Positions 33,579 through 64,000 of a stretch of 64,000 nt of DNA are shown here, one piece after another. The translations under genes and the position numbers were made by a program. Below the pieces are notes generated by a model, which had not been told where the DNA came from, did not search any database, and was given only the letters and a program-made list of their open reading frames with translations. Numbering within the stretch: position 1 is the first letter of the stretch; every line of letters begins with the position of its first letter. Source of the DNA: Falciphora oryzae (Eukaryota; Ascomycota; Sordariomycetes; Magnaporthales; Magnaporthaceae); contig JNVV01000067.1 in the NCBI GenBank assembly GCA_000733355.1, positions 60,053 through 124,052 on the forward strand, in the 5' to 3' direction.

Positions 33579-33833
33579 TTAAGGTCGTTGATTGGCGGGT
33601 GTTAAAATGTATGCAATTTGGCAGTGTGCACTAACAGCACAATGCCAAGACTTGGTGAATTCGAGGACGGTGTTGCCGTATTTCGATACCATGCTATAGA
33701 TCGTATTAATCGAAACATCGTATTTCGCGTTTAACGCGGCCTTTTCAACTCCCGTAAGATATTCCGTAACAATTTTCGTCTTTTTATAAGGGGAATACTC
33801 GCTTAACGGGTTCTCCGGGCCTCGTTTAAGCAT
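33579..33833 (-). pseudogene. Tc1/mariner-like transposase fragment (N-terminal helix-turn-helix)
   Basis: The minus-strand frame beginning at 33833 contains EYSPYKKTKIVTEYLTGV followed by NAKYDVSINTIYSMVSKYGN. This is the paired-type helix-turn-helix layout of fungal Tc1/mariner transposases (SPY-[KR]-R..I then a recognition helix). The frame loses similarity after VLEFTKSW, and an assembly gap lies less than 100 bases further on. Only the DNA-binding N-terminus remains visible; no DDE catalytic part is seen. AT-rich codons contrast with the host genes. Confidence 0.55.
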
Positions 33834-33964
33834 ATTGTGCGTGTTTGAATTGATAGGGTTGATGAAAACGCGTTGCGAGAAAGCGGGGTAAAGAAAAAAT
33901 CTGTCGGTATTTTTGTCCCCCCACTGTACCCAAAAACCTGACGCCACACCTGTTTGTCTGCAAC

Positions 33965-36900
33965 TCAATTGCTGCTACTCCTGAAGTATGGAGTTAGTGC
34001 AAAAGTGCTCCAGAAAGCAGATAACAAGGTGGAAACAAGGGCAATTGGAACAAAAGGATTCTGTAGGTCCTCAGGCAAAATTGCCACCCGCCAGAAAAAA
34101 AAGGCCAAAGGCCCAGCAAAGATAAGGAAATGGTAGGCAAAGACGGAAGCCGCCGAAACAGCATACACTGGATGTAGGCCCCAAATTTCCCCAGTCTGGT
34201 CGCTTTCAAACTTGCTGGACCTTTTCGGAATGCTTTTGATTGCACCATTCCCATTGCCGACCCCCTCAGTGCAGTCATGTGGAAACAGCCAAGTACATGG
34301 GAAGGTACAGGAGTGGAAGAGATCTCTGAACAGCTTGGGCCGGATCGGGGGATTGGAGGCATTGGGGGCTCGGGGATTGTACTGGTAATCCTTATTTGTT
34401 GGGAGCCCACTGCGCTCGTGGTAGATGCGCTTAGCAGGCCATCGTGAGAACTTTTGCATACGTCAGCGCATTGAATATGACATAACAGAAGCTCAAGGCT
34501 TTATAATGCCAAAACATACCATGGCTACTTCGCAATTATCCAGGCACCAGACGGAGAACCAGTAGCTCAGTCGACGACGTTGGACCCGATAATAGCATTG
34601 CCTCAATTCTCGGAAAACACTGTAGTCGGTGCTGTTGTCGCTAACCGAAATTTCGGCTAGTACCGTACGCCCCCAAGTAGCTCGAATGCCAAAAAATATC
34701 CATCCCTGGTTTTGGGGGTCCGGGTGCGATTCTACCGCTTGTTTTCGCTGCCCCATGGTAGGGCTTTGTTGCACGGGGGGTCCAGAAGGCGCGTTGACTT
34801 GACGACCACCACCAGGTCGGGGTCCATATGTCGGAGGCGATGAAGATGGGGTCTGCGGCGGCGGCGTGTATCGTTGGGCTGCTGACGATCCTGGTACTGC
34901 CGGCACTGCAAGCATTCTCCGGAGCACGCCTCCCAATTTGGCCGGCGAGGCAAATCCGACGCGTTTCTTCCTGCACCAGTGCGGCAGCCGCGGTTTGTTA
35001 TCTGAAAGGTCGAATATCTTTGTCACAATCTCGTGCTGTTCGGCGGATATTTCCGACCACTCCAGTAACCCACAGGTCTGCCAAACGTAAGCGTCGTATC
35101 CACATAAGCATGCAGGAAACTTTTTACCTACACATCGCCAGAATACTCGAAATTCGCCATCTCGCAGCATCCGTTTTCGAGCCTCGAGAGGCCACCAGTT
35201 CCATCTGACCTGTGTGCTATCCTCCATCCACGTCTTCAGCCTGTTCGCCACGGAGAGATCCTGCTGCGATGACATCGAAATGTGCTCTTTGGGTATCGAC
35301 AGAAGCACATCCCTCAGCCCAGTCGGCAGGAACAGGAGCATGAAGTCCTTGAGAAGGGTTCGATATGATCTGGCTCCCAGAACGAAATCCTCAAGCCCGG
35401 AAATAAGGGGGAACTCGTCTCTTTCGGTGTCGTCGTCTCTCTCGGAGTCATCGTCTCTGTCGGAGTCATCGTCTCTCTCGGAGTCATCGTCAGAGCTCGA
35501 GATTCCAGGCCCGAATTTCTGTTCCGGAGCAGATATGCGATGATCCGCCGGTCTCTCTGAAATAGTTTGAAGCCAATTCTCGACACTGCGTGTCTCTTGC
35601 GGGGAGACCTGTGCCTTAACTGGCTTGCCCACCCAACCATCCTCCTGCTCTGGTTGTATATGGAAGGCAATCTGATTACTGATTCGCTGCCTTCCTTCCC
35701 GACTCCGTAGCAGTCTGGCCACAGCCTTTTTAGCATTCGTGTTGGCTTCCCTGAGGAGATTCTTGTGGAACGACCTCAGCAACCGCCGCAAGTTTTCCAC
35801 CAAACGTCGCCTTCCCATCTTGGATATAGCCTTGTCGCAAAGTTTCCTAAACTGAGGCTGGTTGGTCAGGAACACACTGATGAGCGCTTTGCCGGTCTTT
35901 TCTTGGATGGTCGTTTCACCAGATGCTTGGGAGCCGATATCATCGTCGTCAGATGTAAGGGGCCGGATTTCGTAGTTGTCGGGGTCGTCTAGGGAGTTTC
36001 TGAAAGTATGAGACACAGTTAGTGAAGCGAACACGACGGAGGCTAGATATGCCGGAACAGGCGGACATAAGGGCTTTTCATACTCGGTAGACATGAAACA
36101 GCCCTGAGCTCTCTCCTCAACTGGCGACTGGGAACCTTTTCCAAATCCATCGGCGACTGCCATGCTGACCTGGCAATGGCCTTCCGTGGCATTGGCTTGT
36201 GTTGACTCAAACCATCCTTGAATGAAAACCTGCTTGTCCGCCTGATCCGAAACTTGCTTGTATAGGTCGAAACGGTCCGCGGGTTGAGAGCCTATTATGG
36301 GATCAATCTCTCCCAGACGCTGGGCCTTCGGTTCGTCTCTGATATTTTGTATCATTATTACCGGATGTGTGTCAGGACTACTCTGGTCTTGCTTGGCCCG
36401 CGATCTTTGGGGAACGTCCACGATGGAGGACGGAGTGGACGGCGCAGGATTGACCGAAAGTCTTCTTAGCCGTGTGTGCGTATGTTGTCGGCCGATGGGT
36501 GCTGTGGTTTCCTTGTGGATAACGTTTTGCCTGCTGTGCGTCGTTTTGGAGAGGATGTTTTCCAGCACATAGGTTCTCGCCCATTCTTCCGGGGAGATGC
36601 CGTCTGATTCGGGTTCGAGATCGATGAGCTTGTGAAACTCGAGGCAGGCTTTTATAAGCTCGCTGTGATCGAGGTCGCTTGCTATCTTTTTATAAAGCCC
36701 TTCGAGGTAAGTGTTCAGACGCATCCTGCGGTGCCCTGGCTTTTGGAAGTAGTCCTGTATCTCCTTTTCCAAAGACCGTCCGAGATGAATTTCCATGAGA
36801 AGCTTCCCCAGGAGGAGGAGTTCTGGGTTATCCGGAAGCCTACCCTTGAACAGTTCCGCGCCATTTTGCGTGGGACCGTCGGGCGAGCAGGCGATGAACG

Positions 36901-38201
36901 GACCGGATGAGCGGGATACCTTGAATGGCGTGTCCTCGTGGACCCTGAAGAATATGTCTTTGGGACTCCATCCTTTGCCCGCCCACTTGGAAGCAAACAG
37001 GTGGGAGAAGGAGCGTGTAAGCGTAATGGCAAGCTCGCTCTTCTCGGTTCTGTTAAACCGTTCCGCTGGTGACGCGTCCACGTTGGATGGAAGAAATAAG
37101 CCGTTGGCCATCAGGTCGTGGAGCGACTGGGTTGGGTATTCGTCCCCATAGTTCCGGGTACTCCCGTCGCGTGGGGAGAGTATTTGTAAGGTTGAGCCAT
37201 CGACGTGTAGCTGTAAACCTTGCCCGTTGACTCGTCGACTCTCAATCGTCTTACAAAGACCAGAAGGGTCGAGATGAGAGACTCTGGTACAGCTTGGTGA
37301 AGGGAAGCAGGACAGGATGAAACGTATTATCAGCGGAGGTTAGGCATCAAATGGAGGCGGCTGGCATGGCTCCATACCTGGAGGGTGCGACTCTTGCCTC
37401 TTGCCAGCAGAAATGGTCGCCGCATAGCGAGATGAACAGGTCAAGTGACGCCTCCCTGATCTCCTCAGAGGGTTGTGCTGGTGGAAGGTGGAGGCGGACA
37501 GCGTGAGGGGCTTCCTCGCAGCCACTCAAGTGGCCGAAGAGGGCGTCGAATGTAGCTATGGCGTAGTGCCGGAAGGCTGCAAACGTTTCCCCCAGTTGCC
37601 TGGATGCAATGAAGTGGGTTTGGTCGCGAGGCACCTCGGTCAAGGCATCCAAAATGTCGTTGACTTTACGCAACGTCGCAGTGTCCTCTTGGATCGAATC
37701 GTGGGTGGGAAGGCAGAAAGCGCTCAGACTACGGCCTGCTTGGGAGCTAAGAGGGGCTTCCAGCTGATCTGCGAGGTCTAGAAGCGATCGCAGATTTGGG
37801 TAGAGCTTCTGTAGTCCCCTGTCGAAGACGCGGTTACGGGCTCTTTGAGGACCGCCTGCTTGCTTGTCGCCCGGCCCGATCAATGACTTGTTGACCAGGC
37901 GGTTGAGCAGCCGACAGAGGGCGGCCAGTCGCCGCTCGCAATTTTCGAAGTCCTCAGCCCGGGACACGACAAGGTCTTGCTCGAAAATGTTCCGGACGAA
38001 GACGGAAGCGAGATCGAATTGGAAGTCGCCGCCCTGGTTGGCCAGGGATATGGCGCCTGCGTTGGTGCTCGCTTTGGTGCTCGCTTCTGTGGCCCGATTG
38101 ATGTCGGCCGACGAGACCAGGGTGTGGTCGAGGGAGTCGTGGAGGGCACAAAGGACCTGCCACTCGAATATGTCCAGAAGACCAAACGACTCCTCCTCCA
38201 T
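33965..38201 (-). CDS. DUF7580-domain protein with C-terminal membrane helices, partner of the divergent NLR gene
   Basis: Exons, complement of 38201..37378, 37292..34520 and 34450..33965, join in frame to 1,360 residues. Residues 1-275 contain FATFDALFGHL-type, HAVRLHLPP and CGDHFCWQEARV blocks. After intron 1 come LCKTIESRRVNGQGLQLHVD, SLHDLM, WAGKGWSPKDIFF, the SGPFIACSPDGP loop and NPELLLLGKLLMEIHLG, all typical of fungal DUF7580 (kinase-like fold). The middle has S/T-E-R-D-D-D acidic repeats and an FWRC...CLCGYDAYV segment. The part across intron 2 carries FSRWPAKRIYHERSGLPTNK and SIPKRSSKFE, which recur in fungal proteins. It ends with two hydrophobic segments, near residues 1294-1321 and 1332-1350. 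Intron 2 (GTATGT to GCAAAAG) is needed; without it translation stops after CFGIIKP. The start MEEESFGLL is the first Met of the conserved frame. Function unknown; membrane anchoring and association with cell-death-type NLR genes are inferred. Confidence 0.85.
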
Positions 38202-38897
38202 GGGGAATATTGATCTGGCGCTCAGCCGGGCGGTTTGAGTGTTGGGAATTGGAAGCAAGGAGACGAGTCGTGTGCCTCGTGTTGGGTTGGCAGATGGAGA
38301 TCTGGCGGGGGAAAATCGGCAAAGGGACGACGGGACCCAGGGAATGATGGCGGAAGCGACCGTGTTGCCAGCCCGCGGACTGCCCAACCTGTAGCGCCGC
38401 CCAAAGCACCCGCAAGCCCATAGCATATGGGAAGCAAGTGCTATTGGGCACATTCAATTCCACCAATGCATGTGGGCGGGGGCGCAGCTGATGCAATTCC
38501 ATGGGAGAGTGTGGGGGATAAAAACGCGGATTGGCGACCGTACGCGACTGTTGGCTCCCCTAGGCCCCCCCAAAACCCCCTTCGTTCAACTCAGCTGTGT
38601 GCTCCATTCCATGCTCGACGCATCTTGCCGGGGAGGAAAGCGGGGTACTTGAGGCCTAACTAGGCACCTACTCCCAACCAGCCTCGCTCCTCCAACCCTC
38701 CCCGATCCCAGTCAGCACACTGCTCTCCCGGGCGATCCAACCTAGGTGTCAGATCCCACTGGCTGGCATCGACGTCTCGACAGGCGTCGTATTCGAAGCT
38801 TCCGCCTCACTCACCCTGATCCTTTAACCTCTTGCTGGCCAGGCTGGTTATGTGCTGCAGAATACCTAGAGCACTACCGCCACCTCCCTGCTAGGCA
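38202..38897. promoter_or_regulatory. Shared divergent promoter region of the DUF7580 and NLR genes
   Basis: The start codons at 38,201 (minus) and 38,898 (plus) face away from each other across 696 bases with no supported gene. Co-regulation of the pair is a reasonable inference. No specific operator was identified. TACTTGAGGCCTAACTAGGC at about 38,646 and CCTAGG-type words occur within it. Confidence 0.5.
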
Positions 38898-41800
38898 ATG
38901 GCGGACGACAGTCCCGCCCAGCAAGAGGGCGGAGACGAACCGCCGGGCTCAAAGCATGCGCCTCCGGAGTCCTCAATTGCCCCTGTCGCTAAGGTCTGCG
39001 CCGACTTGCTCAGCAGCCTGAGCGGCGGCGGCGACCCAGATGCCACGGCTGGGTTCAACGACCACCGCCTGCGGTTCCAGTCCTGGTTGAATCCCGCGGC
39101 CGTCTTCGCGACCGGCAGACTCTCGCTCGACCACCGGTTACGGCACAGTCCTGAAGTCAAGGGCCTCGTACTCCACCAACTCCATGCCCTGCGGAGAAAT
39201 CTATTGCTGTGTAAGCTAGACCCCAAAATCCCGTCTTGCCTTGATACGAACGCGAAGTCCCAGTCTAAACCTACATCTCCTCTCCGTCCAGGCCACGGGC
39301 TGCTTCGCGCGCCGCAGGGAGCAGGCAACCCTCCCACGCCTTCCTTGGGGCCGTCAGTGGAATCTCCCCTCGATAAACTCCAAGGCCGAGAGCGAGCTCT
39401 TCAAGCTGCACGCGACGGTGTCCATGGCTGCCTCGACCGTCTCCATCGGCTCGGCGTGGCCATCAGGCAGGCATCGTCCGGCCAGCTCATGCGGAGAGCT
39501 GGGCGGTTTGCCAAAGACGACCGTGTCGGCCCGTTCGAGCAGATGGCTCGTGCAGTTCTCCGCAGCCTCTACCAAGTAGCAAACCCTCAGTTGCTCGAGC
39601 AAATAGTGGTCTCGCTCTCCCAGAGGTACCAGCTCCTGCTGTACCGGAAAAGCCAGAGGCCCACTGGCGAGCAGCCGCGGAAGGTTGTATGGCCGATGCA
39701 AGAGCCTACTCGGCCAGGTTTAAGCCAGAGCAAAGGAACTACTCATACCCCACAGATGTCGGAGGCGACCCATCCTGCACTTCCACCAAAAACGAACCCG
39801 CTGGCACCACAGTCAACTGTCATATCCTCGAGATTCGACGAAAAGGCCTTCCAGAACCCAGAGCATCGACCGTTCAAACAGGAAGCTGTGAAGGCGCCAC
39901 CAACAACTGCCTTCAACGTCGGCGATGCAAACTTGCCGCCACATCCCAAGATCAAAGAGGGCACAACACACCGAGACTGCCCCTGGTGCCACGAGAACCA
40001 CCCTGTATCCTTGTTCAACACAGCTAGCGAGTGGAGGTAAGATCATCTAAGCCTTTAACAGATATTATCTTTGCACTCTGCCGCCTTGCCGGACATTTAG
40101 CCTGACTACCCGCAGACGACACCTGAATAAAGACTGGGAGCCATACGTCTGCATTTCAGACGAGTGCGCAAAGGCGGAAAAGATTCCCACGTTCGGAACC
40201 TACCGAGCCTGGCTAGACCATATGAACGGGACTCACACTGAACAGTGGGTCCGCCGGGCGTATAAGCAGCCGACCTGGCTCTGTGACGTCGAACACACCA
40301 AGCCTCAGAGGTTCGACAGCGATGCAAAGCTGAGTGAACACCTGTACAGTCACCCCGACTTGACACCCTACGAGCGACAGACCATCACCCGACAAAGCGT
40401 GGTTTTCCTCACCAGGGCGGAGGGCGTATGTCCTCTGTGCTGCTTCAACCACGTCGAACAAGACTCGAACGGCAAGAGATATCCGAAACAAGGCGGTTCA
40501 AGATCAGAAGTCGATGTCGACATCCCGAACTCTGGAGCTGGTGCTAACGTGGTGATGCTCAAGGCCCGCGTAGCTCGGCAGCGGCTAGCCAGAGAGGTCG
40601 CCCGGCATCTTCAGGCTGCTACTTTCATGATCATTCGGCTTTTGAATCCGTCCTTCGAAAGCGACAGCAGCGGCGGCGACGACGAAAACAAATCGTTCCT
40701 CACAGATAAAGTCTCTTCGGGCACCGGGACTTCGAACACGAGGCCCAGCTACCAGGCCTCACTCATGTCCAACTCGTTGGCAGCCACGGGGCCGACGTTG
40801 CCCCCAGTAGACTACGACCTAACAACAATCTTCCGCATCCAGAGGATCCCATATGACGTCAACCTCGAAGCGTTTGGGTCGCTCTTGGCAGCGGCCTCGC
40901 ACTTGTTTCTTGACGAGATTTGTGTCCGCTCGTTCTCCAGGGTTATTCCCAATTCGCAAACATCCACGATCACAGCGACTGTCACATTCTCCAAAAAGCC
41001 GTCTTTCTGGGACCGGAACGCCGATCCTACAACGAAGCAGCTGCGCCATGCCGTCGACCTGACGTTGTCAGATGGCCAGCCGTCACACATCGTCAGCGTA
41101 GACCAGCAGTTTTCTGGCTTTACATCGCTCACCCCCGTTGCCACACAGGCAAAGCCCAAAAGCCTGGCTTTCCGCGTCAATGACATCCCAATCGACCACG
41201 CCGATAAGTTGGAGCTTACCCTAAGGCTTATCGCTGAGCAGGACCCAGTCTTGCGGGGAGCCGCCGCAACTATAGTTTGTCGCTCTTTGGCACCGCGAGA
41301 CAACCAGTTCGGCTGCGCTACCGTCTCGATCACTACATCGCTCTCTGGAGACGAGCTGTCCGCACGGCTGCGTCTGGCTGGGAAGGGTTACCCATACAGC
41401 TACACCTGCAAATTCGACGGAATCACACCTCTGTACGAGGGCAAAAGCGGCGCCGATGTCGAGTAAGTGCCATCCTCCGCCCTTGCCCTTGCCCTTGCTG
41501 ACTCGCACTTTGCAGCGTCATTGCAGTGCCCGGCCTCGGAAGCCACGCACTCGGTTCCTGGAAATCCCCAAACAGCGACGACGTCTGGCTACGCGACTTC
41601 CTTCCTAAGGACGTGCCCAATATCCGGGTGCTACTTTACGGCTACGATACTACGCTGCCCGGCAGCCGCTCGAAACAGTCCATTAAGGATTTGGGCGCCA
41701 CTTTTTTGGAACAGGTCATTGCCTTTCGGGCGAGAGATGGGGTACGCGATTCTCGATATTGCACTATCTGGCTCAGGCTAACCCTCGTAGACCTCTCGTC

Positions 41801-44328
41801 GTCCCATCATCTTCATCGGCCACAGCCTCGGCGGCCTGCTGATCAAAGAGGTAAGATGCCCGCGCCGCCCGTGGCAAAGCAGCTGGCTGATTGCCGTAGG
41901 CGCTTGTTCGCGCTCGCAACCGAAGCAACGACGCGAACTCGGACTTGTCCTTAGCCTGTTTCGGAATGCTTTTCTTCGGCGTGCCAAACCTCGGCCTGCG
42001 AAACGGCCAGTTGATGACCCTTGTCCAGGGTCAGCCGAACGAATCCTTAATTCGCGACCTACTCGTCGACAACGACTCTGAACCATCAAACTTCCTGAAG
42101 AAACTTGCGGACGAATTTTCCAACAGCTGCAAGGGCCACTATCGAGTGGTTACCTTTTTCGAGCGCGTGCTCAGCCCAACCCTAGAGGTGAGATGCACCG
42201 TCGGAGATACGAGAGTTGACGCTGATCCTTGTCCCCATAGGCGCAACAAGGGAAATGGAGCAAAACGGGACCCGACTCTTTGTTGGTCACAGAGAAGTCT
42301 GCTACCAGTACAGGCTTGGTCGCCGCCCCCGATGAAGACAACATCCCCCTCAACCGAGATCATTCGGGGCTCGTTAAGTACGAATCTAAGAACCAGGGTG
42401 ATTATACTGTTGTGGGAGAACGAATTAAAAGACTCGTTCATAACGCGAAGCTGGAGGTAGCCAGACGATTCGCCGAGCATAGTACGTTGTTCCTAGCCTA
42501 TTGTGTAAGCATCAGCTAATTCCGTAGTCTAGACCTATACCAACCCCAGTCTAAAACAACACAAGCTTGCCTGAGATCGTTAGCCTTTCAGGACATGGAT
42601 GGCCGGCCCAATGACATTGCCAACGCTGCCGATGGCACCTGCGGATGGCTTCTTGAGCACAAGACCTTGAAGCAATGGACTCGCCAGCACCGAGGCCTGC
42701 TTTGGGTCAAAGGGAAGCCCGGATCTGGCAAATCAACTATAATGAAATACGCCCTGCGTGCACTTCCTCCCATTTACGGAACCGACACGCTTGCATTTTC
42801 CTTCTTTTTCCACGGCCGCGGCCACGAACTGCAGAAGACCCCGCTTGGCCTCTTCCGATCCCTTTTGCACCAGCTCCTCAAGAGTGTCACTGGCGCCCTA
42901 CCCGACCTGATCGCCTACTTTGAAGAAAAGCGGAAAACAGAGGGCGAGCCAGAAGAGAAATGGCAGTGGGACCTGCAGCCATTGCAGGGTTTTCTCAGGT
43001 CATCACTTCTAAGGATCCTGGAGAGATTTCCAGTCATATTCCTCATCGACGCGCTCGACGAATGCGGCGAAAAGTCTGCTCGCGAACTCATCTCACATCT
43101 CAAAATTCTGCTTTCGAGTCTTCCTCCAAATGGTTCTCAGTTCGGCATCTGCTTCTCTTGTCGTCAATACCCCATCCTGGAGCTCGACGGCGGATTGACG
43201 GTACTGCTCGATACCGAAGAAAAGCACACGCGGGACATCCGGAAGTTCGTTAAAGCCTACGTTGCGATGCATCATCTAGACGCCGATATCGGAGAGCTCA
43301 TAATCAAGGGTGCCCAGGGCGTTTTCATGTGGGCACGCCTTGTTCTTGAACAAGTGGCGAAGCGTAGCTGCGACGCGGAACCGAAAGGGAAGATCGAGGC
43401 CGCAATTCGGCAGACGCCCAAAGAATTGGACAACCTGTACCGCGAGCTTATTCAAAGCGTGGAAAATCGCTCAAGCACCCTGAGACTCATGCAATTGGTT
43501 TGCTTCTCCACGAGGCCGTTGACGACAGACGAGCTGCAATGGGCCATGGCAGTTGATCCCGACGGCACTCACAAGTCACTCAACGACTGCCAGCGGTCGG
43601 ATGACTTCGTCATTAACGACAAAATCGACAGAAGAATCAAGGCTCTGAGCTGCGGTCTCGTGGAGATCGTGCCGTCATACAATGGGCAGGTTGTCCAATT
43701 CATCCACCAATCCGTTAAGGATTTCGTCGAAAGAAGTCTGTCCGCTCTAGACAGCAGCTCAACGTCGACCGATGCGGCAATCGGAATGGCACACCACCAG
43801 CTGTCCAAAATCTGCATACGCTACTTGGCGATGAAGGAGATCGGTCAATCAACAGGCTACGGGCGTCGCGACTTTCCTTTCCTGCATTATGCCACGATTT
43901 CGTGGGTGGCGCACGCGAAACAAAGTGATGCTAGGAGTGTCCGTCAAAAGGATCTTTTGGAATGTTTTGCTTGGCCATCAAACGCTCTCGTGGATTTATG
44001 GGTGCGCGTTTACAGGATATTGGACGAATATTCCCGTGATTGTCCAGCAAAAGGGACCAGCCTGGTACACGTTGCGTCGAGGTATCAGGTGGTAGGGCTG
44101 TTAAGTGATATTTTGCAAAGGGCGGACCAGATTGGCACTGAAATCGATATTAGAGATCAGAAAGGTCGGACGCCGCTATTGTGGGCCGCGGAGAACGGGC
44201 ACGAGGCCGCCGTTAAGCTACTGCTCGATACGGGCAAGGTCGACGTCGACGCGAAAAATAGGTACGGCCAGACGCCGCTGTCGCGGGCTGCTCGATACGG
44301 GCAAGGTCGACGTCGACGCGAAAAATAG
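38898..44328 (+). CDS. NLR-type protein: acuF zinc fingers, alpha/beta-hydrolase, NACHT, ankyrin repeats
   Basis: Seven exons (38898..40036, 40116..41462, 41516..41741, 41791..41850, 41900..42187, 42241..42481, 42533..44328) join in frame to 1,698 residues. Residues 360-490 hold a multi-Cys/His region like the fungal acuF-type C2H2 domain (CPWCHENHPVSLF, WRRHLNKDWEPYVC, CPLCC). Residues 600-830 include a beta-rich stretch and the SGFTSLTP segment that usually precedes the lipase-like part of fungal STAND proteins. Residues 830-1020 are an alpha/beta-hydrolase with VPGLGSHALGSW and nucleophile elbow FIGHSLGGLLIKE. The NACHT ATPase follows, with Walker A GKPGSGKS (about 1161) and Walker B VIFLIDALDEC (about 1268). 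The C-terminus begins ankyrin repeats (GRTPLLWAAENGHEAAVKLL). Such proteins act as cytosolic sensors in heterokaryon incompatibility or xenorecognition. The ankyrin tail is cut by a frameshift at near-identical repeats. Confidence 0.88.
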
Positions 44329-44421
44329 GTACGGCCAGACGCCGCTGTCGCGGGCTGCTCGATACGGGCAAGGTCGACGTCGACGCGAAGGATAGGTCCG
44401 GTCAGACGTCGCTATCGTGGG
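44221..44421 (+). repeat. Tandem 67-base ankyrin-coding repeats with deleted segments
   Basis: CTGCTCGATACGGGCAAGG begins at 44221, 44288 and 44355. The first two units are identical over 67 bases and the third is diverged. A full ankyrin unit, judged from the one just upstream, is 102 bases; the repeated units lack about 35 bases corresponding to the GCCGCGGAGAACGGGCACGA segment. Confidence 0.85.
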
Positions 44422-44507
44422 CCGCGGGTAACGGGCACGAGCCCGTCGTCGAGCTGCTGCAGGCCGCGCGGACCGGGCACGCCGCCGTTGCGAAACTTTT
44501 AAAATGA
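44329..44507 (+). pseudogene. Out-of-frame ankyrin C-terminus of the NLR gene
   Basis: In another frame the sequence after the premature stop still encodes ankyrin residues (KDRSGQTSLSWAAGNGHEPV, then LLQAARTGHAAVAKLLK) and ends at a TGA at about 44,505. This is what remains of the original C-terminus and is not reached by the current frame. Confidence 0.7.
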
Positions 44508-46325: not shown

Positions 46326-46565
46326 TCAACACCGCGTTTTTGATCGTTTTTTAATAAATTGCTCGTGGCGATAACTTCTATTTGCTTCCCTTTTGTTGAT
46401 TGAGTCCCTGCCTGCATTGAAGCCTATGTTCGTTTGTGTGGGTGCGCCATAGAAAAGTCCATGCGCACCGATATCGGGGTGGGGGTGCGTGTGGGAGCAA
46501 AAAGGGTGCGTGCCCGGGAAGAGCCTCGTCTTAATGGCGCTCTTGGGCCGGAGGATACGCGTCGC

Positions 46566-46865
46566 ACGCGTCATGTTGCCGTTGCGCCTCTTGTTGCACG
46601 GCTCCATGGTCGTGTACAGCGCCGTGTTCTGAGGCAAGACCTCGTGGATGCGCTCCTCGGGAAGATTGTACTTGTCGGCGATTTTAATAAAGCAGCACTG
46701 CTCGGCGTGCGTCGTGCCCGGGTCCCCCTTATAGTCTCGGGGGTATTCCAACGAGTAGCCGGTGGACAGCACCTGTCCCGCGTCCGCGTCCATGAGTACT
46801 GCCCCGACGCAGAACTTGTTCGCCGCGGGCGGAGATTTCCTGGCCTGCTCAACAGCGAGCCCCAT
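46566..46865 (-). pseudogene. Truncated cytidine/DRAP-deaminase-like gene
   Basis: The frame from 46865 downward has KFCVGAVLMDADAGQVLSTG, the metal-binding THAEQCC and TMEPCNKR with the expected second zinc Cys. These are the hallmarks of zinc-dependent deaminases of the fungal riboflavin/tRNA-deaminase group. In close relatives the second zinc site is P-C-x-x-x-x-S/N-G-N-x-x-C; here the second Cys is missing (NGNMTRATRIL). After RPKSAIKT similarity ends abruptly and the frame runs into repeat DNA at about 46,330. The missing Cys and absent C-terminus suggest a non-functional remnant. A TATATAA box (minus strand) lies about 75 bases upstream, in the end of the neighbouring inverted repeat. 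Confidence 0.6.
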
Positions 46866-47186
46866 GAAGGCCTGGTGGTCGTTGGGTTCGAATTTGGGGT
46901 AGGTGGATTCGGAGGGCCTGGCCCTGGTAGTGTTTATATAGGGGTCTGCCTATACAGCCCCAGCGTTTGGCTATTTGGCCCCAGAATCGCGGGGCCACAG
47001 TGCCAACACACACGGATTCGGTACCTCGGCCAAATCTGTACCAAAGCGCGAAGATTTTCAATGTACTTAATGTTAGCCCTGTGCACGGAGGAAAAGTAAA
47101 AAGGCTCAACACCAAAGAAAAAGCCCGTGATAATTTTTTGATGCTTACGATCAGCTTCTAATCGACTTTAACAACAATGCAATCTT

Positions 47187-55833: not shown

Positions 55834-56550
55834 CGCCTAAGTAGCATGGCCCCTTGGGCCCCGTCACGTGCCTGGGTGTCTCAGGCCTCCACAGGGCGCA
55901 GCCCCACCAGGGAGGCTGAAACCCTCCTCTGTGGCGACCCTTTTTATCGCGACGGGCCTCCTTACACTATCCCCCCTTTAAAGCGCTAACGTTTCGGCAG
56001 CGCCTATTAGTAGGGATGTAGCGGTGCCTTTCCTAAACAGCTTCGATTTACTGTTTTAGGATTGGGTTATAGGTGGAAGTGGCAATTTGACCGGAGATAT
56101 CGAGTTTGGCGTAGCGTAAGTTTTAAATAGCCTTACTTTTGGGGCTGCAGCGAGTCCCTAGTAACTTCCGGTAGGGCTCGGGCAACGGCAGGTGCGGGGG
56201 TCCGGTGGGTCCCGGCCACGGCGGCGGTAGGTGCGGCTAGCCCGGTGGGTATCCAATTCCCTTCCGGCCCGGCGACCTTCCACCTTTTCCTTTCCTCAAC
56301 AATAACAACCTTTTAATTTGTTGTTATTTTACCTAGCCTGCCTTTTTTGCTTTGGTTCGCGCCTGGGCTTACGCGAACGTTTTAATTTGTTTGTTCGTTT
56401 GCGTTTGCCTTAGCGTTGTTTGCATTAGTCCTACGTTCGCGCTCCTCTTTTCCCTGCTTTTTAGCGCTCGCGCAGCTGAACGTCCACTCGATTCGTGCCT
56501 GCGACCTTATTCTTATCGTATGCGCCCTCGTCGTTAGCGCTCGTTATCAA
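55834..56550. other. Repeat-derived spacer with no visible gene
   Basis: CG/TA-rich alternating sequence typical of decayed repeats. No frame is convincingly coding. Confidence 0.35.
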
Positions 56551-57844
56551 CCGCACGCCCATTCGTATATTTTCGTCCCCTCCCCCAATACGCTCGTTTC
56601 GGGCGTGGGCTAACCTTTTTTAGGTTATATCTTATGATTACGAGGATAACGCCGCCGTCCGGCGTTAGCTTTTCGATTTCGCCGATAATAAGCAAACGGT
56701 GGTCCGGAACCTATTTACGGTTCCGAACGTACGCGCGCGCGTTTATTTCCAACCCGCCATTCCTTTTTTTAGGGTGGCTCCGGTTTGGCCTTATCCGACG
56801 TTTTAGTTGCCTATATATCCCGCTGGCCTTTTTCGAAGGTTGCGCGACTTTACGGATCTTTCCGACGATAAATAGCTGCTCGCTTTTCGGCTCCTTACCG
56901 AAAAGGACCGTCGTTAGGCGATAGTCGTGCCGATTGCCGGTCCGTTCGATTTTTACGATAACCGGCGTTTATTCCTTTGCGGGAATTGCTATATTACCGA
57001 CCTTTTCCGGGGCGGCGAGCATAACGAGCATAATTTAGTATGTGCCGTCGGTTTTTTCGAGGCGGGTCGCTGCTATTAGTGTGTTTGGCGCGGTTAGGTT
57101 TATCGTCCTTTGTAAGTTCCTTTTCCGGTCCGGTATTATCGTGCTTTTGGTTTATATAAACTTTTTAGGCCTCGCGTGTACCCGTTTAACGTGGACCGCA
57201 CCTTGTTAAAAACAGCCTAATGGGTGCGTGGCGGGCTGCCCTTTCCGGCTATTGGAGTTTTACGCTTCCGGGCCGTTTATAACCTGCTTTTATGGGAGAA
57301 TTTGTATGGATCTTCCGTTACTACCCACCCCGACGCTCGTTATAGTTTGCTGTTTTCGGCTATCGACGGGGGACGGATTTTTGCGAACGTGGCGGTTTTA
57401 ACCCCAGTGCATCCCGATTAGCTGGTATTTTTTTGGGAACTGACGCATTCGTTTTATTTCCTCCCAACTTTTCGCGATTTGCTGGTATCCATCCGGTATA
57501 AGGAGCGTATCGCCGGCGGTTATTGGAGTTTTGTCGAACGTCCGTATGTGCATATTTGGACCCCTTCTTTTCGCGAGCTCGGTTTGGTTAACGCGCGTCT
57601 GGCCGATTTAGGTTAGCCTGCTTTCCGGAATCGTGCTTCGGTGATGATTTACGTAAATTATGCCAATCGCTTTTTGCATTTTTTCGATTTCGAGCAAACC
57701 GGGGCCGCGTATCGGATCCGTCTTTTAAGCCCCGTAGGTTTTTGGGGGGAAGTTTCCGACGCCGGCTTCGTAAGCGATGGTACGACGGAGGAGGAAGTAA
57801 AGGATTGGTTTGAGCATGTCGCTTCGTTGCTCGATTTTACCGGG
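56551..57844 (-). other. Degraded open frame downstream of the gypsy pol, unidentified
   Basis: One minus-strand frame from 57,844 to about 56,550 reads protein-like for long stretches (ITAGDTLLIPDGYQQIAKSW; EPKSEQLFIVGKIRKVAQPS; HRLLIIGEIEKLTPDGGVIL) interrupted by about ten TAA/TAG stops. It could be a third frame of the gypsy element, another decayed element, or chance: the plus strand is also fairly open at 57,182-57,847. No family recognised. Confidence 0.3.
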
Positions 57845-57989
57845 TAAAGATAATGCAGGTGGAAGGCGGGCTTCTGGTTAGTAAAGGAGTCGCAAGTCCT
57901 GGTTGATACTGCTTTTTCCTTTTTTTTCGGGCTTATTTGGTTGGGTTTTTTGGTAATTTCCCCTTTTCCGGGCTTAGGATAGGGTTATC

Positions 57990-58180
57990 CCATTTGCGGT
58001 GCGTTTTGCGTTTTTTTTTTAAATAGGTATTAACCAGTTTACGTGCGTTTTTTAGATGTTCTTTTGGCTCCTACGTATTGTATTCCACTAGCTATCCTGC
58101 CCATTTAACCAGGAAGGATCGGGATCTTTTTTGCTCGCGTATATTAACGACGTTTTCCACTTCCCACTCCTCCGTTTCCT
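57990..58180 (-). pseudogene. Chromodomain at the end of gypsy pol
   Basis: WEVENVVNIREQKRSRSFLV, then KWAG, stop, LVEYNT, stop, EPKEHLKNA: this matches the chromodomain consensus with aromatic positions of the cage and the W of WEP replaced by TAG (58,094-58,092 and 58,073-58,071). It identifies the element as a chromovirus. Confidence 0.75.
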
Positions 58181-58445
58181 TTTCCAATTCCGGGAGAGCA
58201 AAGTTAGGAGGTTACGGACGGGAATCGTTTTAGGGTTTTAATAACGTTACGGAAAAAACGTTATGCAAACGGCTGTACTTTTCCGGCAGCTGTATTTCGT
58301 ATGCTGAACTGCCAACCCTTTTTACAATAGGTACCCGGATGTAAATAGGTGCCATTTTGCGGGTCCTTGTTTTGAACCGGAAGTTCTTTATGGACAAGCT
58401 AACGACTTGTCCCTTTTGGTACTTTTAAGGTTGTTTCCGTTGGTT

Positions 58446-59330
58446 TTAATACCGGCGTTGGGCTTCCATAGTACGGGTATAGTTGGTCCGCATATCGGTT
58501 CGGATTTTGCGGATATGGTGTAACCGTTCCAGCGCTTTTTGGACTTTGGTTTTTTTAGGGTTGATTACGATTTTACATATGCGAGGGTTAAACCTATACA
58601 GTGCTTTAAAGGGATTAACGCTAATGGTTTCGTACTTGGCGTTATTGTACGCAAATTCGGCCTTATATAACATTGTTACCCAACCGTACTTTTTTCGGTT
58701 AATGGACGTCCGTAAGTAATGCGTTAGTGTTTGGTGGGTGCGCTTTATTTGGCCATCGGTTTAAGGATGGAACGCCGTGGATAGCCGTCGGGCTGAGTGC
58801 AAAGCTTTTCGGTACTTCGCCCAGAAGTGGCTTGTTAGCAGCGAATTTTTGTCGCTAACGATACCTTCCGGGGTGCCGAACTGGCACTTAACGTGCTGCT
58901 ACAGCATTTGGGCTAGTACAGGCGCCGAAATGGTTTTGCGCATTGGGATGAATTTGGCGTATTTGGTGAAGCGGTTAATTACTACAAGCACGGCATTATA
59001 CGTTTGTCCTGTGGAAGTTGGGTATTCGGGTAGCCCTGTAATGAAGTCCAGGCTAATCTTTTGGAATGGATGCTCCGGTAATGGGAGCGGTTGCAGTTCG
59101 CTATAGGGTTTGTGTTTGGGCACTTTAGCTCCCTGGCATGCCTGGCACGATTTAACGTAAGCTACGATATCCTTATCTAGGTTTTCCCAGTGGAATTTGC
59201 GTTTAATAAGTTTTATTGTTTTGTGAACTCCGAAATGTCCGGCCCGGGGGTCGTTGTGGTGCTGAGCCATGATTTGGGCTTTTAACGCTTTTTAGGCAGG
59301 TACTATTAAGCGTTCCCGGAAGTACAGAAC
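58446..59330 (-). pseudogene. Gypsy integrase
   Basis: The HHCC-type zinc-binding part contains HHNDPRAGHFGVHKTIKLI and SCQACQGAK. The core starts LDFITGLPEYPTSTGQTYNA with the first catalytic Asp. The FHP-stop-TDGQIKRTHQTL segment is the familiar FHPQTDGQ motif with Gln changed to TAA. AEFAYNNAKYETISVNPFKA is the conserved end of the core. Stops and the offset from the repeat frame make it non-functional. Confidence 0.8.
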
Positions 59331-59384
59331 TCCGTCTTCGTTCATATGGTATCCTTTGTGGGTGGTTCGGCTTTTTTTAGCCTT

Positions 59385-59925
59385 ATCGCCTCCTTAAGCG
59401 GCATCGCTTCTTCCGGCGGCATCACGTCTGGGCGCGGTATCGCTTCCTTTAGCGGCATCGCTTTTAGCGGCATCGCTTTCCCTGGCGGCATCGCGGCTTT
59501 GCGCGGTATCGCCTCTTTCGGCGGCATCGCGTTTCCGCGCGGTATCGCTTTTAGCGGTATCGCTTTTTTCGGCGGTATTGCGTCTCCGCGCGGCATCGTT
59601 TCCAGCGGTATCGCGTCTTTACGCGGTATCGCCTTTTTCGGCGGCATCGCTTTTAGCGGCATCGCGTCTCTGCGCGGTATCGTATCTTTACACGGCATTA
59701 TATCTTTATATGGCATCGCTTTTTGCGGTATCGCGTTTTTGCGCGGCATCGTGTCTTTGTACGGCATTATGTCTTTATATGGCATCGCTTTTTGCGGTAT
59801 CGCGTCTTTGCGCGGCATCGTATCTTTGTACGGCATTATATCTTTGTATGGTATCGCTTCCAGCGGTATCGCTTTCTGCGGTATCGCGTTTTTGCGCGGT
59901 ATTGCCTCTTTGGGCGGCCACGTTT
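59385..59925 (-). repeat. Fifteen-base tandem repeat inside pol
   Basis: About 35 imperfect copies of a 15-mer of the form GGCATCGCKTTTNGC (plus strand). Read on the minus strand they give pentads such as MPYKD, TMPRK, DAIPQ and KAMPL; the frame continuous with RNase H instead gives pentads such as KRDTA and ESDTA. The block lies between the RNase H end and the integrase zinc-binding part. Confidence 0.85.
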
Positions 59926-60218
59926 GTCCTAGCGGGTTGATCTCTTTGGATCCCGGCGCTGTTTTTTACTAAGGCACGCAATGCGATAACTTTTTGGTTT
60001 TGCGTTTGTAACCGCTTGACCAATTGGTATGTTGCTTGGCTTGGTTTATCGGCCCTGGCCGTTTCGTCCTTTATTAGTTCGATAATGACAGGGCGAGGGA
60101 GCAGTTGGTTATGAATAACGCTCCCAGCTCCAAGCTCCTCTGCCAGCAGTTCTTTTTTTGCCCGGGGCTGAGCCGTTGCGGACCTTTTTGGGTTACCCTT
60201 TGGGCTAGGCTTTGCCTG

Positions 60219-62154
60219 CTACTTTCGTCTCTTGTTGCGAGTGAGGGTTGCGATAGGGATTTGTATGGCTATTTGCAGCCCAGGCCGTAGAGACTGGTTA
60301 CTTTCGGCGATTTCCGAACGTGCCCGTTTTAGGCGAGGCTTTGACGGCATTTGTTTTTCGTCCTTCCCTTTTATAGGGGCATCGATTCGGGTAAGATAGT
60401 TTAGAGGGTCGACGCTATGATTACTCCCTTTTAAGCGGGCGCGTTGCCTTTTCCTTGGGTCGCGAACCCGAGTCGGAATCTTTTTTGCAGCTTGCATATA
60501 TTGCTTTACGACATTTGGATAATTCTTTTGGATCGTTAGTGTAGCTATTTGTTGGGTCAATTTACTTGGCAGGTGCGGCAACAAGTTTAGCTTGGCCGCA
60601 AGGGACGGGACGACGTCCTCGTATGTGATCTCTCCCCCTATATAATTTGGCCTTTTGGATAGACCGTCGGCGGGGTTGGTTTTGCCTGCTTTATGTTCAA
60701 TGTTAAAGTCAAACTGCGATAGCTTGTACACCCAGCGTGCCAATTTCCCGCGGAGGTCTTTCGCGGGTGTTTGGATTATTCCTTTTAGGGCTTGGTGGTC
60801 CGTTAGTACTGTAAATACTTTGGAAGCTCCTTTTAAGTATTGGCGCTAGTGCTTTAACGATTCGATAATCGCTAGTAGCTTCTGCTGGCCCGTGGCCCAT
60901 TTCTGCTCCGCGTTGGTTAGCTTGCGGGAATAGAAAGCCACGGGGTGCTACCTGCTATCCGTCAGTTGCGATAGGATGCTAGAGATGGCTTTGGTAGAAG
61001 CGTTTGTTTCCATTCGTGTTTTTTTAGTTGGATCCCAATGCTTTAGGATGGTGGCGTTCCCGAAAGCCTTTTTAAGTTTTTCGAATGCCCTAGCTGCCGA
61101 TTGCGGCTAGTCGAATATCCCTTTTTTTTTGCCGTTTTGACTGCCTTTAAGCAGCTCGGTTATGGGTGCTACTACGCGCGAGTAGCCGGGAATGAATTTG
61201 CGGTAAAAGTTGGCGAAGCTTAGGAACATTTGGATGTCCTTGTAGGACTCGGGTGGTTGCTACTCCTGGATAGCTTTTGTGCGATCGGGGTTTATGGAAA
61301 TGCTTTCCCTGGAAACCCGGAAGCCTAGGAATTCGACGTGGTCCTGGAAAAACTCGCATTTGGATTGCTTTGCATATAGCTCGTGCAACCGGAGTCGTTC
61401 CAAAATTTGCTTTATATGCATTTCGTGCTTTTCTTCGGTTTGGGAAAACATAATGATGTCGTCGAGATACACCACGTAGATGTGGTTTATTAGCTTTGCT
61501 AGCGCTTTATGCATGTAGGTTTGGAACGTTGACGGGGCGTTGGTTAATCCGAAAGGTATAATAGTGTATTCGAACAGCCCGTATTTGGTGCGGAAGGCTG
61601 TTTTTTACTGGTTTTGCTTTTTGATCCGGATGCGATGGTATGCGTCCCTTAAATCCAGTTTGGAAAACCACCTCGCTCCTGCCAGCCTGTCCATCAAGTT
61701 AGAGATAAGCGGCAAGGGATATCGGTTTTTGCGAGTGATTCGGTTAAGGGCGCGGTAGTTAACGCATAAGCGTAACGTGCCGTCCTTTTTGGGGACGAAC
61801 AGTACGGGGGATCCTGCGTCGGCCTCGGAGGGGTTGACCTTTCCTAAAGCCAGGTTCTTTTAAAGGTATTCCTTTAACGCTGCTGTTTGTTTTTCCGAAG
61901 TTGGGTACAGGGCGCCCACTGGGGGTTTGGTCCCTTCTTCCAATTTGATAGCGTGTTCCGCTTTTTTTTAGCAGTGGAAGTGCTTTGGCCCGTCGGCTCG
62001 AAAACACGTTGGTATAGGTTTGGAGGCGCGGGTCGAGGGGTTCGGCCAGCTTTTCTTCGTCCTTATCATCAAATGAGGGGACCGTGGGCTTGTGTGCATT
62101 GAGCTGGTAATGCGTTGCCGTAATATGCCCGATAACGGCCTTCGTTAGTTGCAT
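60219..62154 (-). pseudogene. Gypsy reverse transcriptase and RNase H
   Basis: The palm motif VVYLDDIIMFS lies at about 61,445-61,478, followed by HVEFLGFRVS and the [10 protein letters not shown] connection. The RNase H part reads HPVAFYSRKLTNAEQKW, VFTVLTDHQALKGI and FNIEHKAGKTNPADGLSKRP. The catalytic YLDD is intact, but TAG or TAA stops occur at 61,262-61,260, 61,109-61,107, 60,950-60,948, 60,848-60,846 and at the W of the fingers motif near 61,605. Confidence 0.8.
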
Positions 62155-62229
62155 TTGGTATGCTAGCGAGCCCGAAGCAACGGCGGCCGCCCAATCATTT
62201 GGGTTAGGGACGCGTGTTGTCCTAAACTC

Positions 62230-62532
62230 CTAGGACTGGTCGGCGTTAAATAGGTTAATGCTTTTTTGGGCTATCGTGGGATGCCCAATAAGGATATCTA
62301 GTGCGTCCGCACTTTTGCGGATGGCGTAAAACAGCGCGGTGATGGTTCGCTTTTGGCCTTTCCGATTTTGGGCTTTTAAAGTAATGTAATAGGCCCCATA
62401 ACATTTAATGGGTGCGCTTTGGATTCCGATAAGTTCGGGGATCGGCTTGGAGGCCGCGGGAAGTTTGAATTTCCTAATGAACTTATGGCTTACTGTATTC
62501 GCTGCGGCGCTTGTGTTTAGGTTTATTAGCAC
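62230..62532 (-). pseudogene. Gypsy aspartic-protease-like segment, active site lost
   Basis: INLNTSAAANTVSHKFIRKF followed by ALDILIGHPTI follows the retropepsin layout (active-site loop, then the ILG-type flap-strand motif). The expected D-[ST]-G-A is N-T-S-A here: Asp to Asn and Gly to Ser, both single G-to-A changes on the coding strand. Confidence 0.6.
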
Positions 62533-62789
62533 TTTGATTTGTCGTTTTATCGTTTAGACGTTTATGCCCGTTCTAAAGGAACGGCTATGGCCCTTTATGT
62601 TGAGGATGTTAAAGCCGTGAGGGTAGGGGTCGTTTAGCGGCTGTTTTCGTTTCCCGATTTATCGTTATACTTTATTTGGGAACGATAACGGTCGTTTCGA
62701 GCTGGGGTATGTTCGTTTTCGCCGTTGCCGTTACTCCTACGGTCGTAATCGAGTTCGTCGTCTTTGGGGTATTGGGCGTCGATTGCTTT

Positions 62790-63776
62790 TACCTTTTTAG
62801 GTTTGGTAGGGCAGTTAGTGGCCTAGTGACCCGTTTTTTCACAATTGTGGCATGTCCCGGGCTTCGGTCCCGTGTGGTCTGCTCGTTTGGCTTTGCCGTC
62901 GTAGCTTGATGGCTTTTTTGTTTGGGGCGTGCTGGACTTGGGGAACCGATGGTTTCCCGACCTCTTTTTATAACGGCGGGAGTCCTGCCGTTTAGAGTCG
63001 AAACGGCGCGAGTTATTACGGCCGTTAGGCCGGCGGTCATTTTGCCGGTTAGGCCGTCCTTTTCGTCCGTCCCTTTTTTGGGAGTGGTATCCCGAGGGGC
63101 GCTGGTTCCTGTAAGGCTTTTGGGACTGGCGATGCTCGAACGTTTTGCCAGAAGGCTTGCCTTTTTTAATAGCCCATTTCCTTTTTGCTGCGTTGGCAAC
63201 GTCCTTGGGGGTGTCCCAGTTGGTTTGCGCGTCGGCTACCAGCTCATTTTGTAACTAATTTTGCAAATGGAAGGAAAACTTTTTCGATAGGCGAAATAGC
63301 TGCTAAGGGTCCGTTTACGAGGCTTTAAGTTCAATTTTTTATGCTGATATTTGCCATTTGGTGAGGAACGATACCGGGGATTTTTAATGACCCTGGTGTA
63401 GTTGTTTGTGGCTGATCCAGCTATGGTGGATTTGGATGGTCGGGTCGATTCGTCCCTTTTCGAGGTAGTCGACGAAATCCGTTTATAGCTATTGGTGGGA
63501 CTTAGTTGAGCCGTACAGCCCTTCGGCGTAAGTTTTCCAGTTGGCGGCTATTTCGTAGTGTAACGAGGGCATTGCCTAAGTTATTTGCACCTAGTCGGGG
63601 GCGCTATCGTATAGCGTATTCCCTTTTTTGATACCTTGGACCCAGTTCCTTACTTCCGAAGGGGTGGCGTTGGCTTTAAAAGTATTAACGCTATATTTCG
63701 GGGGTTTGTTGTAACGCGGTGCAGGGGCGTGGTTTCGGGATTTGGATGATAGGATTTTTTTAAAAAGTTCCATCAT
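62790..63776 (-). pseudogene. Gypsy gag region with CCHC zinc knuckle
   Basis: Reads KYSVNTFKANATPSEVRNWV, then LHYEIAANWKTYAEGLYGST and VDYLEKGRIDP with stops in between, a basic Asn/Arg/Lys-rich stretch, and the knuckle CHNCEKTGH followed by TAG and ATNCP at about 62,810-62,853. Nucleocapsid-type RNA binding was the original role. The stop in the knuckle sits where an aromatic residue, often Trp or Tyr, is usual. Confidence 0.65.
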
Positions 63777-64000
63777 TTGGGCCGTGTTTCCGTCGCGGTG
63801 TTCCCTTATAAGGCGGCGGTCGTCCGGTCCGGGGGATTCGGAGCGTCGAATTGGAGCGCGCGATTGGTTCGATTTTGTGCGGTACGTGTGATGAAAAGAT
63901 CGTGAGTTGCGGGAAGTGTCCCTGGATCCGTGGTTGGAAGGGCTACGGGATCGGGGTTCGTCGCGCTTTGGAGATCGGGCTTTTCGTATCGTTAATTCCT

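Follow-up and report, generated by a model that had tools for sequence, protein, structure and literature searches.

The window analyzed here is a 64,000-nucleotide stretch of the Falciphora oryzae genome (assembly GCA_000733355.1; 50.2 Mb in 123 contigs), taken from contig JNVV01000067.1 (positions 60,053 to 124,052 of the forward strand; hereafter contig C67). Within it, two large genes point away from each other across 696 bases (38202..38897). The gene on the reverse strand encodes a protein with a DUF7580 domain and a hydrophobic tail, and the gene on the forward strand encodes a NOD-like receptor (NLR) that combines an acuF-type N-terminus with an alpha/beta hydrolase, a NACHT-type domain, and ankyrin repeats. 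This divergent arrangement had been proposed from the letters of the window alone (the sequence-only reading), and both genes are present where it placed them, with modeled starts at 38201 and 38898. The region between the starts is likely a bidirectional promoter. Start-to-start gaps in the modeled pairs were 696 bases in the window and 425 to 491 and 499 bases at two related loci described below (C17 and C15, respectively).

The DUF7580 gene (33965..38201, reverse strand) was modeled from open reading frames (ORFs), Pfam matches, and splice sites as three exons (38201-37378, 37283-34520, and 34450-33965) separated by GT-AG introns, with a start at 38201 and a stop at 33965-33967. The protein has 1,357 residues when counted to the stop at 33965; the translated model used here covers residues up to 1349 (position 33990). 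Two exons match PF24476 (E values of 1.1e-31 and 5.7e-12), the first part of the domain (model positions 6-70) lying at 37377..37577 (C67:97429-97629) and the main part (model positions 80-311) at 36545..37261. By hydropathy, the tail terminates in two segments that are likely to span the membrane (33995..34168; residues 1291-1322 and 1329-1348; 19-residue windows of >1.6), as had been read from the sequence. By the same measure, a further hydrophobic stretch lies inside the protein (residues 680-698).

The partner gene (38898..44328, forward strand) was modeled as eight exons (38898-39210, 39292-40036, 40116-41462, 41516-41741, 41791-41850, 41900-42187, 42241-42485, and 42528-44328) encoding 1,674 residues; for the last intron, an atypical donor (GTTGTT at 42486) was picked because it preserves the frame. 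An N-terminal region common to the partner genes of other pairs (38973..39674; homology searches and profile) is followed by a C2H2-type finger block (40116..40640), whose profile, built from 11 sequences, matched GLI and Zif268 fingers in PDB (best E value, 1.8e-6). After the acuF region comes a hydrolase (41520..41980; residues 804-924; Abhydrolase_6, E value of 1.2e-5, 26.5 bits versus a cut-off of 26.3) with the nucleophile motif GHSLGG, and then an NPHP3_N/NACHT nucleotide-binding domain (42634..43164; NPHP3_N, E value of 1.7e-30; NACHT, 6.2e-5, below its cut-off) in which GKPGSGKS and LIDALDE were read by eye. The protein thus has both the P-loop NACHT-type domain and the N-terminal effector domain (the hydrolase) of a fungal NLR. 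The C-terminal ankyrin array (44130..44507; Ank_2, E value of 7.1e-13) leaves the reading frame. It holds three copies of a 67-base unit (44221-44422; 100%, 100%, and 86% identity), and because this length is not a multiple of three, the open frame stops at 44328. Two of the units are flanked by GT and AG, so that a 134-base intron (44262-44395) is possible and would move the end to 44507. The NACHT and lipase-like parts of the sequence-only reading stand, its ankyrin end is broken by the out-of-frame repeats, and its gene end at 44507 is corrected to 44328, the former being reached only with an intron made of two repeat units.

The label acuF, which comes from the sequence-only reading, presumably denotes the zinc-finger model PF26082; it was not confirmed on the window protein by Pfam, and no acuF domain was named in the acuF exons scanned with a Pfam copy that was without this model. 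A distant homolog of the C17 acuF protein (P0024 from Massarina eburnea; E value of 3.6e-12) bears PF26082 in its precomputed annotation. The N-terminal profile found no relative in PDB (two designed proteins at an E value of 0.63). The pairing analysis rests on homology among loci, established by direct searches and profiles, and not on the name.

Genome-wide searches, whose counts are lower bounds, gave 32 exon matches for DUF7580 (29 loci after merging) and 24 and 14 matches for the acuF-type N-termini of C17 and the window, respectively (21 loci merged). Nineteen of the 21 acuF-like loci had a DUF7580 locus no more than 8 kb away, the expectation for a random place being 0.96% each; the binomial value is still 8e-18 if the compartment is taken to be tenfold smaller. 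Fifteen of these 19 were divergent to a DUF7580 locus and four were not. The matches were <2.7 kb apart in 13 of the 15 divergent pairs and 4.9 kb (C32) and 5.7 kb (C20) apart in the other two; in one divergent pair (C7), a gasdermin match lay between the acuF and DUF7580 loci. Seen from the other side, 20 of the 29 DUF7580 loci had an acuF locus within 8 kb. The two acuF loci apart from DUF7580 are C37:222k (E value of 0.23, perhaps not real) and C52. At the latter, the acuF gene is accompanied by an S8 protease frame (Pfam, E value of 9.8e-11) and a gasdermin, and a scan of 3 kb with the DUF7580 profile gave no significant match. On contig C58, five DUF7580 loci are gathered in an island (69-124 kb) together with four acuF loci and two gasdermins. 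Homologs of the two window proteins are therefore far closer to each other within this genome than random genes, in line with what the sequence-only reading had anticipated.

The same cannot be said of NLRs in general. A comparison set of 153 loci was compiled from the listed NPHP3_N matches and 10 of 85 NACHT matches (chosen by eye as nonoverlapping, then merged), and among these listed loci only 6 lay within 8 kb of a DUF7580 locus. Likewise, only 4 of the 21 acuF loci had a NACHT locus within 8 kb. Given 19/21 acuF loci versus 6/153 NACHT loci near DUF7580, we conclude that DUF7580 recurrently pairs with the acuF-type N-terminus, the NACHT part being optional, and we reject an NLR as the fixed partner. 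The idea of an NLR paired with an adjacent effector accordingly holds for the head-to-head layout of what looks like a sensor beside an effector, which occurs far above chance, and fails for the NLR as the recurring element.

Both the acuF N-terminal profile and the finger profile were matched by all 14 acuF loci with sequence examined (11 independent; three had seeded the profiles). The loci outside this check were C12, C20, C2:49k, C2:57k, C58:112k, C58:119k, and C37, five of the seven having E values of >0.03. Sequence distances in the two families were correlated across 13 pairs (Mantel r = 0.40; reached by 86 of 20,000 permutations), a sample drawn from the 20 DUF7580 loci with an acuF neighbor, with partial domains (99 to 304 residues for DUF7580) and including the three profile seeds. 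For example, C55 and C32 are close in both families (acuF, 48%; DUF7580, 47%), and C15a and C40 agree in their cores (acuF, 56%; DUF7580, 28%) and differ in their ends (PNP and PNP-NPHP3_N versus subtilase and protein kinase). The nearest relative of the window is C17 in both families (acuF, 34%; DUF7580, 25%); the reverse does not hold for acuF, as C98 and C58:69k are equally close to C17.

The ends of both proteins vary from locus to locus. By Pfam, the acuF-type N-terminus is followed by hydrolase-NPHP3_N-ankyrin in the window, NPHP3_N-ankyrin at C17, PNP-NPHP3_N at C15 (PNP, E value of 3.5e-5, slightly below the curated cut-off), ankyrin repeats at C98 and C7, WD40 at C55, TPR at C15:573k, and a protein kinase at C40 (Pkinase, E value of 8.1e-27); ankyrin repeats at C58:98k and WD40 at C58:69k were read by eye. 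No end domain was recognized at C27, C31, C32, or C52, leaving 10 of the 14 acuF loci examined with one. A HET frame lies downstream of the C27 acuF gene and is perhaps a separate gene. Among homologs in other fungi, P0022 (Podospora conica) joins the N-terminus to an Arf-type GTPase, and P0024 joins it to other domains, one of them a macro domain.

On the other side of the pair, a subtilase follows DUF7580 at 17 of the 28 loci scanned (C41:206k left out), with the scan covering mostly 1.5 kb on each side of the DUF7580 match, so that an absence of S8 may be a miss. PF00082 was matched in 9 of 10 subtilase loci checked by Pfam, and C17 matches too. One DUF7580 protein (C15:463k) carries PNP, and the membrane-tailed form was seen once, in the window copy. 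Nothing was recognized after the domain at the remaining DUF7580 loci within the sequence examined. At C9 (near 988-990 kb), a DUF7580 frame is followed by a HET-domain frame (E value of 5e-37), perhaps an effector fusion or a neighbor.

The subtilase-bearing loci are coupled to a third gene. The gene adjoining the C17 DUF7580-subtilase gene matches a chain of the gasdermin RCD-1-2 in a PDB sequence search (E value of 2e-8); no Pfam model matched it. Used as a query, it identified 15 loci in the genome, 8 with E values of ≤0.001 and 7 above. Twelve of the 15 had a DUF7580 locus within 8 kb; a thirteenth, at C52, was next to an acuF locus. A gasdermin was present within 8 kb at 13 of the 17 subtilase-bearing DUF7580 loci versus none of the 11 others (Fisher test, 6.7e-5; one C58 gasdermin locus was counted for two DUF7580 loci). 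The window locus belongs to the latter class: there was no gasdermin match anywhere on contig C67, no S8/subtilase match in 28.0-38.6 kb, and no CHAT or S8 match reported by Pfam on eight window ORFs. A hidden gasdermin or subtilase at the window locus was thus discarded over the regions searched.

DUF7580 itself probably has a kinase-like fold near that of MLKL, as judged from profile searches and a structure model. A profile of 14 paralogous DUF7580 domains, which match only DUF7580 at E values of <0.25, gave seven PDB matches at E values up to 10, and all seven were MLKL (0.009 to 0.35). One paralogue matches PK_Tyr_Ser-Thr (8.1e-4, below the cut-off). The window DUF7580 exon on its own found nothing in PDB. 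The structure model of a DUF7580 homolog, to which we attach little weight, returned with Foldseek 117 matches at E values up to 10, the best being kinases with RIP3 first (E value of 0.13). In this low-confidence model, the N-terminus is helical, and helices precede the kinase-like part.

The C-terminal tail region (33968..35950, reverse strand; query from residue 720) recurs on other proteins. Residues 720-1349 retrieved nine relatives at E values up to 0.001. These carry T5orf172/MUG113 (P0001 and P0003), HET plus repeats (P0008), TPR (P0005 and P0006), or, in a distant case, NACHT (P0009); P0005, read by eye, has PNP-NB-ARC-TPR ahead of the tail region. Because its relatives in other fungi are fused to such varied domains (T5orf172/MUG113, HET, TPR, and NACHT/NB-ARC), the tail region is regarded as mobile and is at times carried on NLR- or HET-type proteins. 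A second copy of the tail in this genome (C9) is interrupted and is uninformative about partners.

In other species, the best homologs of the C17 pair (each search scored only about 7,990 candidates, those with the most words in common) were RB601_001806 (DUF7580) and RB601_001807 (acuF-NPHP3_N) of Gaeumannomyces tritici, at 86% identity each. These have consecutive locus numbers and contigs of identical length (6,636,646); RB601_001806 covers 68% of the query and has no subtilase domain as annotated. The evidence for adjacency outside this genome therefore comes from one orthologous pair in a near relative. DUF7580-subtilase proteins were found in Purpureocillium, Colletotrichum, Annulohypoxylon, Conoideocrella, Neonectria, and Mollisia.

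On the basis of these results, we consider it probable that the window locus belongs to a family of modular gene pairs that act in fungal cell death or non-self response, composed of an acuF sensor, a DUF7580 relay, and an exchangeable effector. The architectures, the adjacency, the orientation bias, the co-diversification, and the link between subtilase and gasdermin are observed directly in the genome, and the pair belongs to a module, read as sensor and relay, that recurs in this genome, co-diversifies, and is linked to the gasdermin clusters of fungi. Judging by its predicted domains, the window copy is an unusual member of this family.

The pair might work as follows. The acuF-type protein would be the sensor, in which an N-terminal platform and C2H2 fingers precede a recognition part that can be exchanged (in the window, hydrolase-NACHT-ankyrin), and would sense through its repeats or its NLR part. 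Its N-terminus or its fingers may then contact the DUF7580 protein. The latter would act as the relay, having an N-terminal region and an MLKL-like pseudokinase ahead of an exchangeable executioner, with the pseudokinase passing activation on to whatever follows it. At subtilase loci, the neighboring gasdermin would be cleaved and form pores that kill the cell. At the window locus, the relay may instead assemble or insert its own membrane tail, so that the pair would target membranes with neither protease nor gasdermin, possibly aided by the hydrolase of the NLR. More tentatively, the whole could be regarded as an inflammasome-like fungal pathway of acuF sensor, MLKL-related DUF7580 relay, and exchangeable executioner (mostly a subtilase that opens a gasdermin), encoded as a unit. 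In the window copy, a membrane tail attached to the relay would stand in for both protease and gasdermin; necroptosis-type and pyroptosis-type parts would then occur in one gene family.

Several observations count against this interpretation. Nine of the 29 DUF7580 loci had no acuF locus within 8 kb, and four of the 17 subtilase-bearing loci (C31, C58:92k, C41:305k, and C9:335k) had no gasdermin found nearby. Single matches were often weak, with E values up to 0.36 (C17 query) and 0.63 (window query) for acuF and up to 0.095 for gasdermin. The MLKL matches are also weak, the structure model is poor (mean predicted local distance difference test score, 42.1), and Foldseek gave no match at an E value of 0.001 or better. 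The membrane role of the tail is suggested by hydropathy, the ankyrin array of the window NLR is out of frame, and no ortholog of the window pair was found as a pair, the tail being the part of the window used as a query.

Chief among the rivals is a guard model: the acuF-type NLR would monitor the DUF7580 protein (as a guardee, a decoy or bait, or an inhibitor) and would kill through its own hydrolase. The window acuF protein does contain an enzyme, the hydrolase, whose nucleophile motif is intact, and the C15 protein has its PNP match just under the cut-off. In plants, NLRs are known to guard pseudokinase decoys, and DUF7580 forms with and without a recognized effector coexist in this genome. 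However, an enzyme was found at 3 of the 14 acuF loci examined (window hydrolase, C15 PNP, and C40 kinase; four of the 14 have no identified end domain) and a subtilase follows DUF7580 at 17 of 28 loci, a distribution that fits flow from sensor to executioner better. We therefore regard guarding as unlikely, if less so than the alternatives below.

Slightly less plausible again is that the window copy is a decaying remnant, left after protease and gasdermin disappeared from the cluster. The out-of-frame 67-base repeats and the failure to find a gasdermin on C67 or a subtilase in 28.0-38.6 kb would be expected of such a remnant. Against decay, about 9 kb of coding sequence remain open, the Walker motifs and GHSLGG are intact by eye, the splice sites are usual except for one donor, neither gene shows the composition left by repeat-induced point mutation (RIP), and the repeats may be removed as a 134-base intron. 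Ten other DUF7580 loci likewise have no subtilase in the sequence examined.

If the pair were simply two co-regulated genes without an immune function, such as a C2H2 regulator and its partner, this would account for the match of the finger profile to DNA-binding C2H2 fingers in PDB; we consider it improbable, because the fusions to NACHT, ankyrin, WD40, TPR, PNP, and kinase domains and the coupling to gasdermin genes are characteristic of cell-death systems. Adjacency by chance within an accessory region, to which the clustering of DUF7580 loci in places (five on C58) might contribute, is very improbable and is rejected for the family in view of the NACHT comparison (6/153 versus 19/21 for acuF), the binomial value even in the smaller compartment, the orientation bias, and the co-diversification.

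Elsewhere around the pair, an ORF flanking the DUF7580 gene (33579-33974) had no Pfam match (no transposon search was otherwise made). About 1.8 kb past the NLR gene lies an AID/APOBEC-like deaminase frame (46326-46949, reverse strand; Inv-AAD, E value of 4.8e-35). The end of the window (56000-64000) has a lower GC content (0.49), a strong AT skew, and a TpA/ApT ratio of 1.15 and is possibly a RIP-affected or repeat region.

Among known systems, the loci resemble gasdermin/HET-Q2-like (Q2L) clusters (het-Q1/het-Q2 type) in that the siblings of the window have a gasdermin beside an S8 protease. According to the portions of the sources consulted, about 80% of fungal gasdermin genes are clustered with protease genes (PMC10197012 and PMC12881547), such two-gene clusters have been described (PMC10197012), and some of these proteases are fused to predicted kinase-like domains (PMC12881547), which may be DUF7580. 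In contrast to those clusters, the DUF7580(-protease) gene is here linked to an acuF-type gene, in most cases head to head, and no protease or gasdermin was found at the window copy. Neither "Zinc finger" nor "C2H2" appears in the text consulted of PMC10197012 and PMC12881547, and neither zinc nor C2H2 occurs in the consulted portion of PMC9815663. The term DUF7580 was absent from the literature searched, and the searches returned no account of pairing with an acuF or C2H2 partner; the primary gasdermin-protease paper may list such neighbors.

The window pair is also like het-S/nwd2-type clusters in that a sensor adjoins a supposed membrane-acting protein, but Pfam found no HeLo on the DUF7580 exons and the acuF platform is common to non-NLR partners. 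A possible likeness to MLKL lies in the weak profile matches, which were to MLKL only, and in the helices before the kinase-like part in the low-confidence model; besides the weak scores, the subtilase, PNP, and tail forms differ in having a further C-terminal part. In Sordariales, the part of PMC12258605 consulted gives head-to-head NLR pairs as rare (13) and C2H2 fingers in 34 NLRs. The window pair shares a divergent layout with such pairs, and with the sensor/helper pairs of plants, but includes one NLR, its DUF7580 partner having no nucleotide-binding domain by Pfam.

On the proposed reading, the pairs identified here extend the known gasdermin-protease clusters. A 2025 review names the regulation of gasdermin-activating proteases and the stimuli acting on sensors as open questions, in the portion consulted (PMC12881547). 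The acuF-type partner would be a candidate upstream sensor for many of these proteases and gives a direct list of candidate pairs. If the proposed reading is true, a domain of unknown function would be placed near the MLKL fold, and a role would be suggested for a fungal membrane-tail module.

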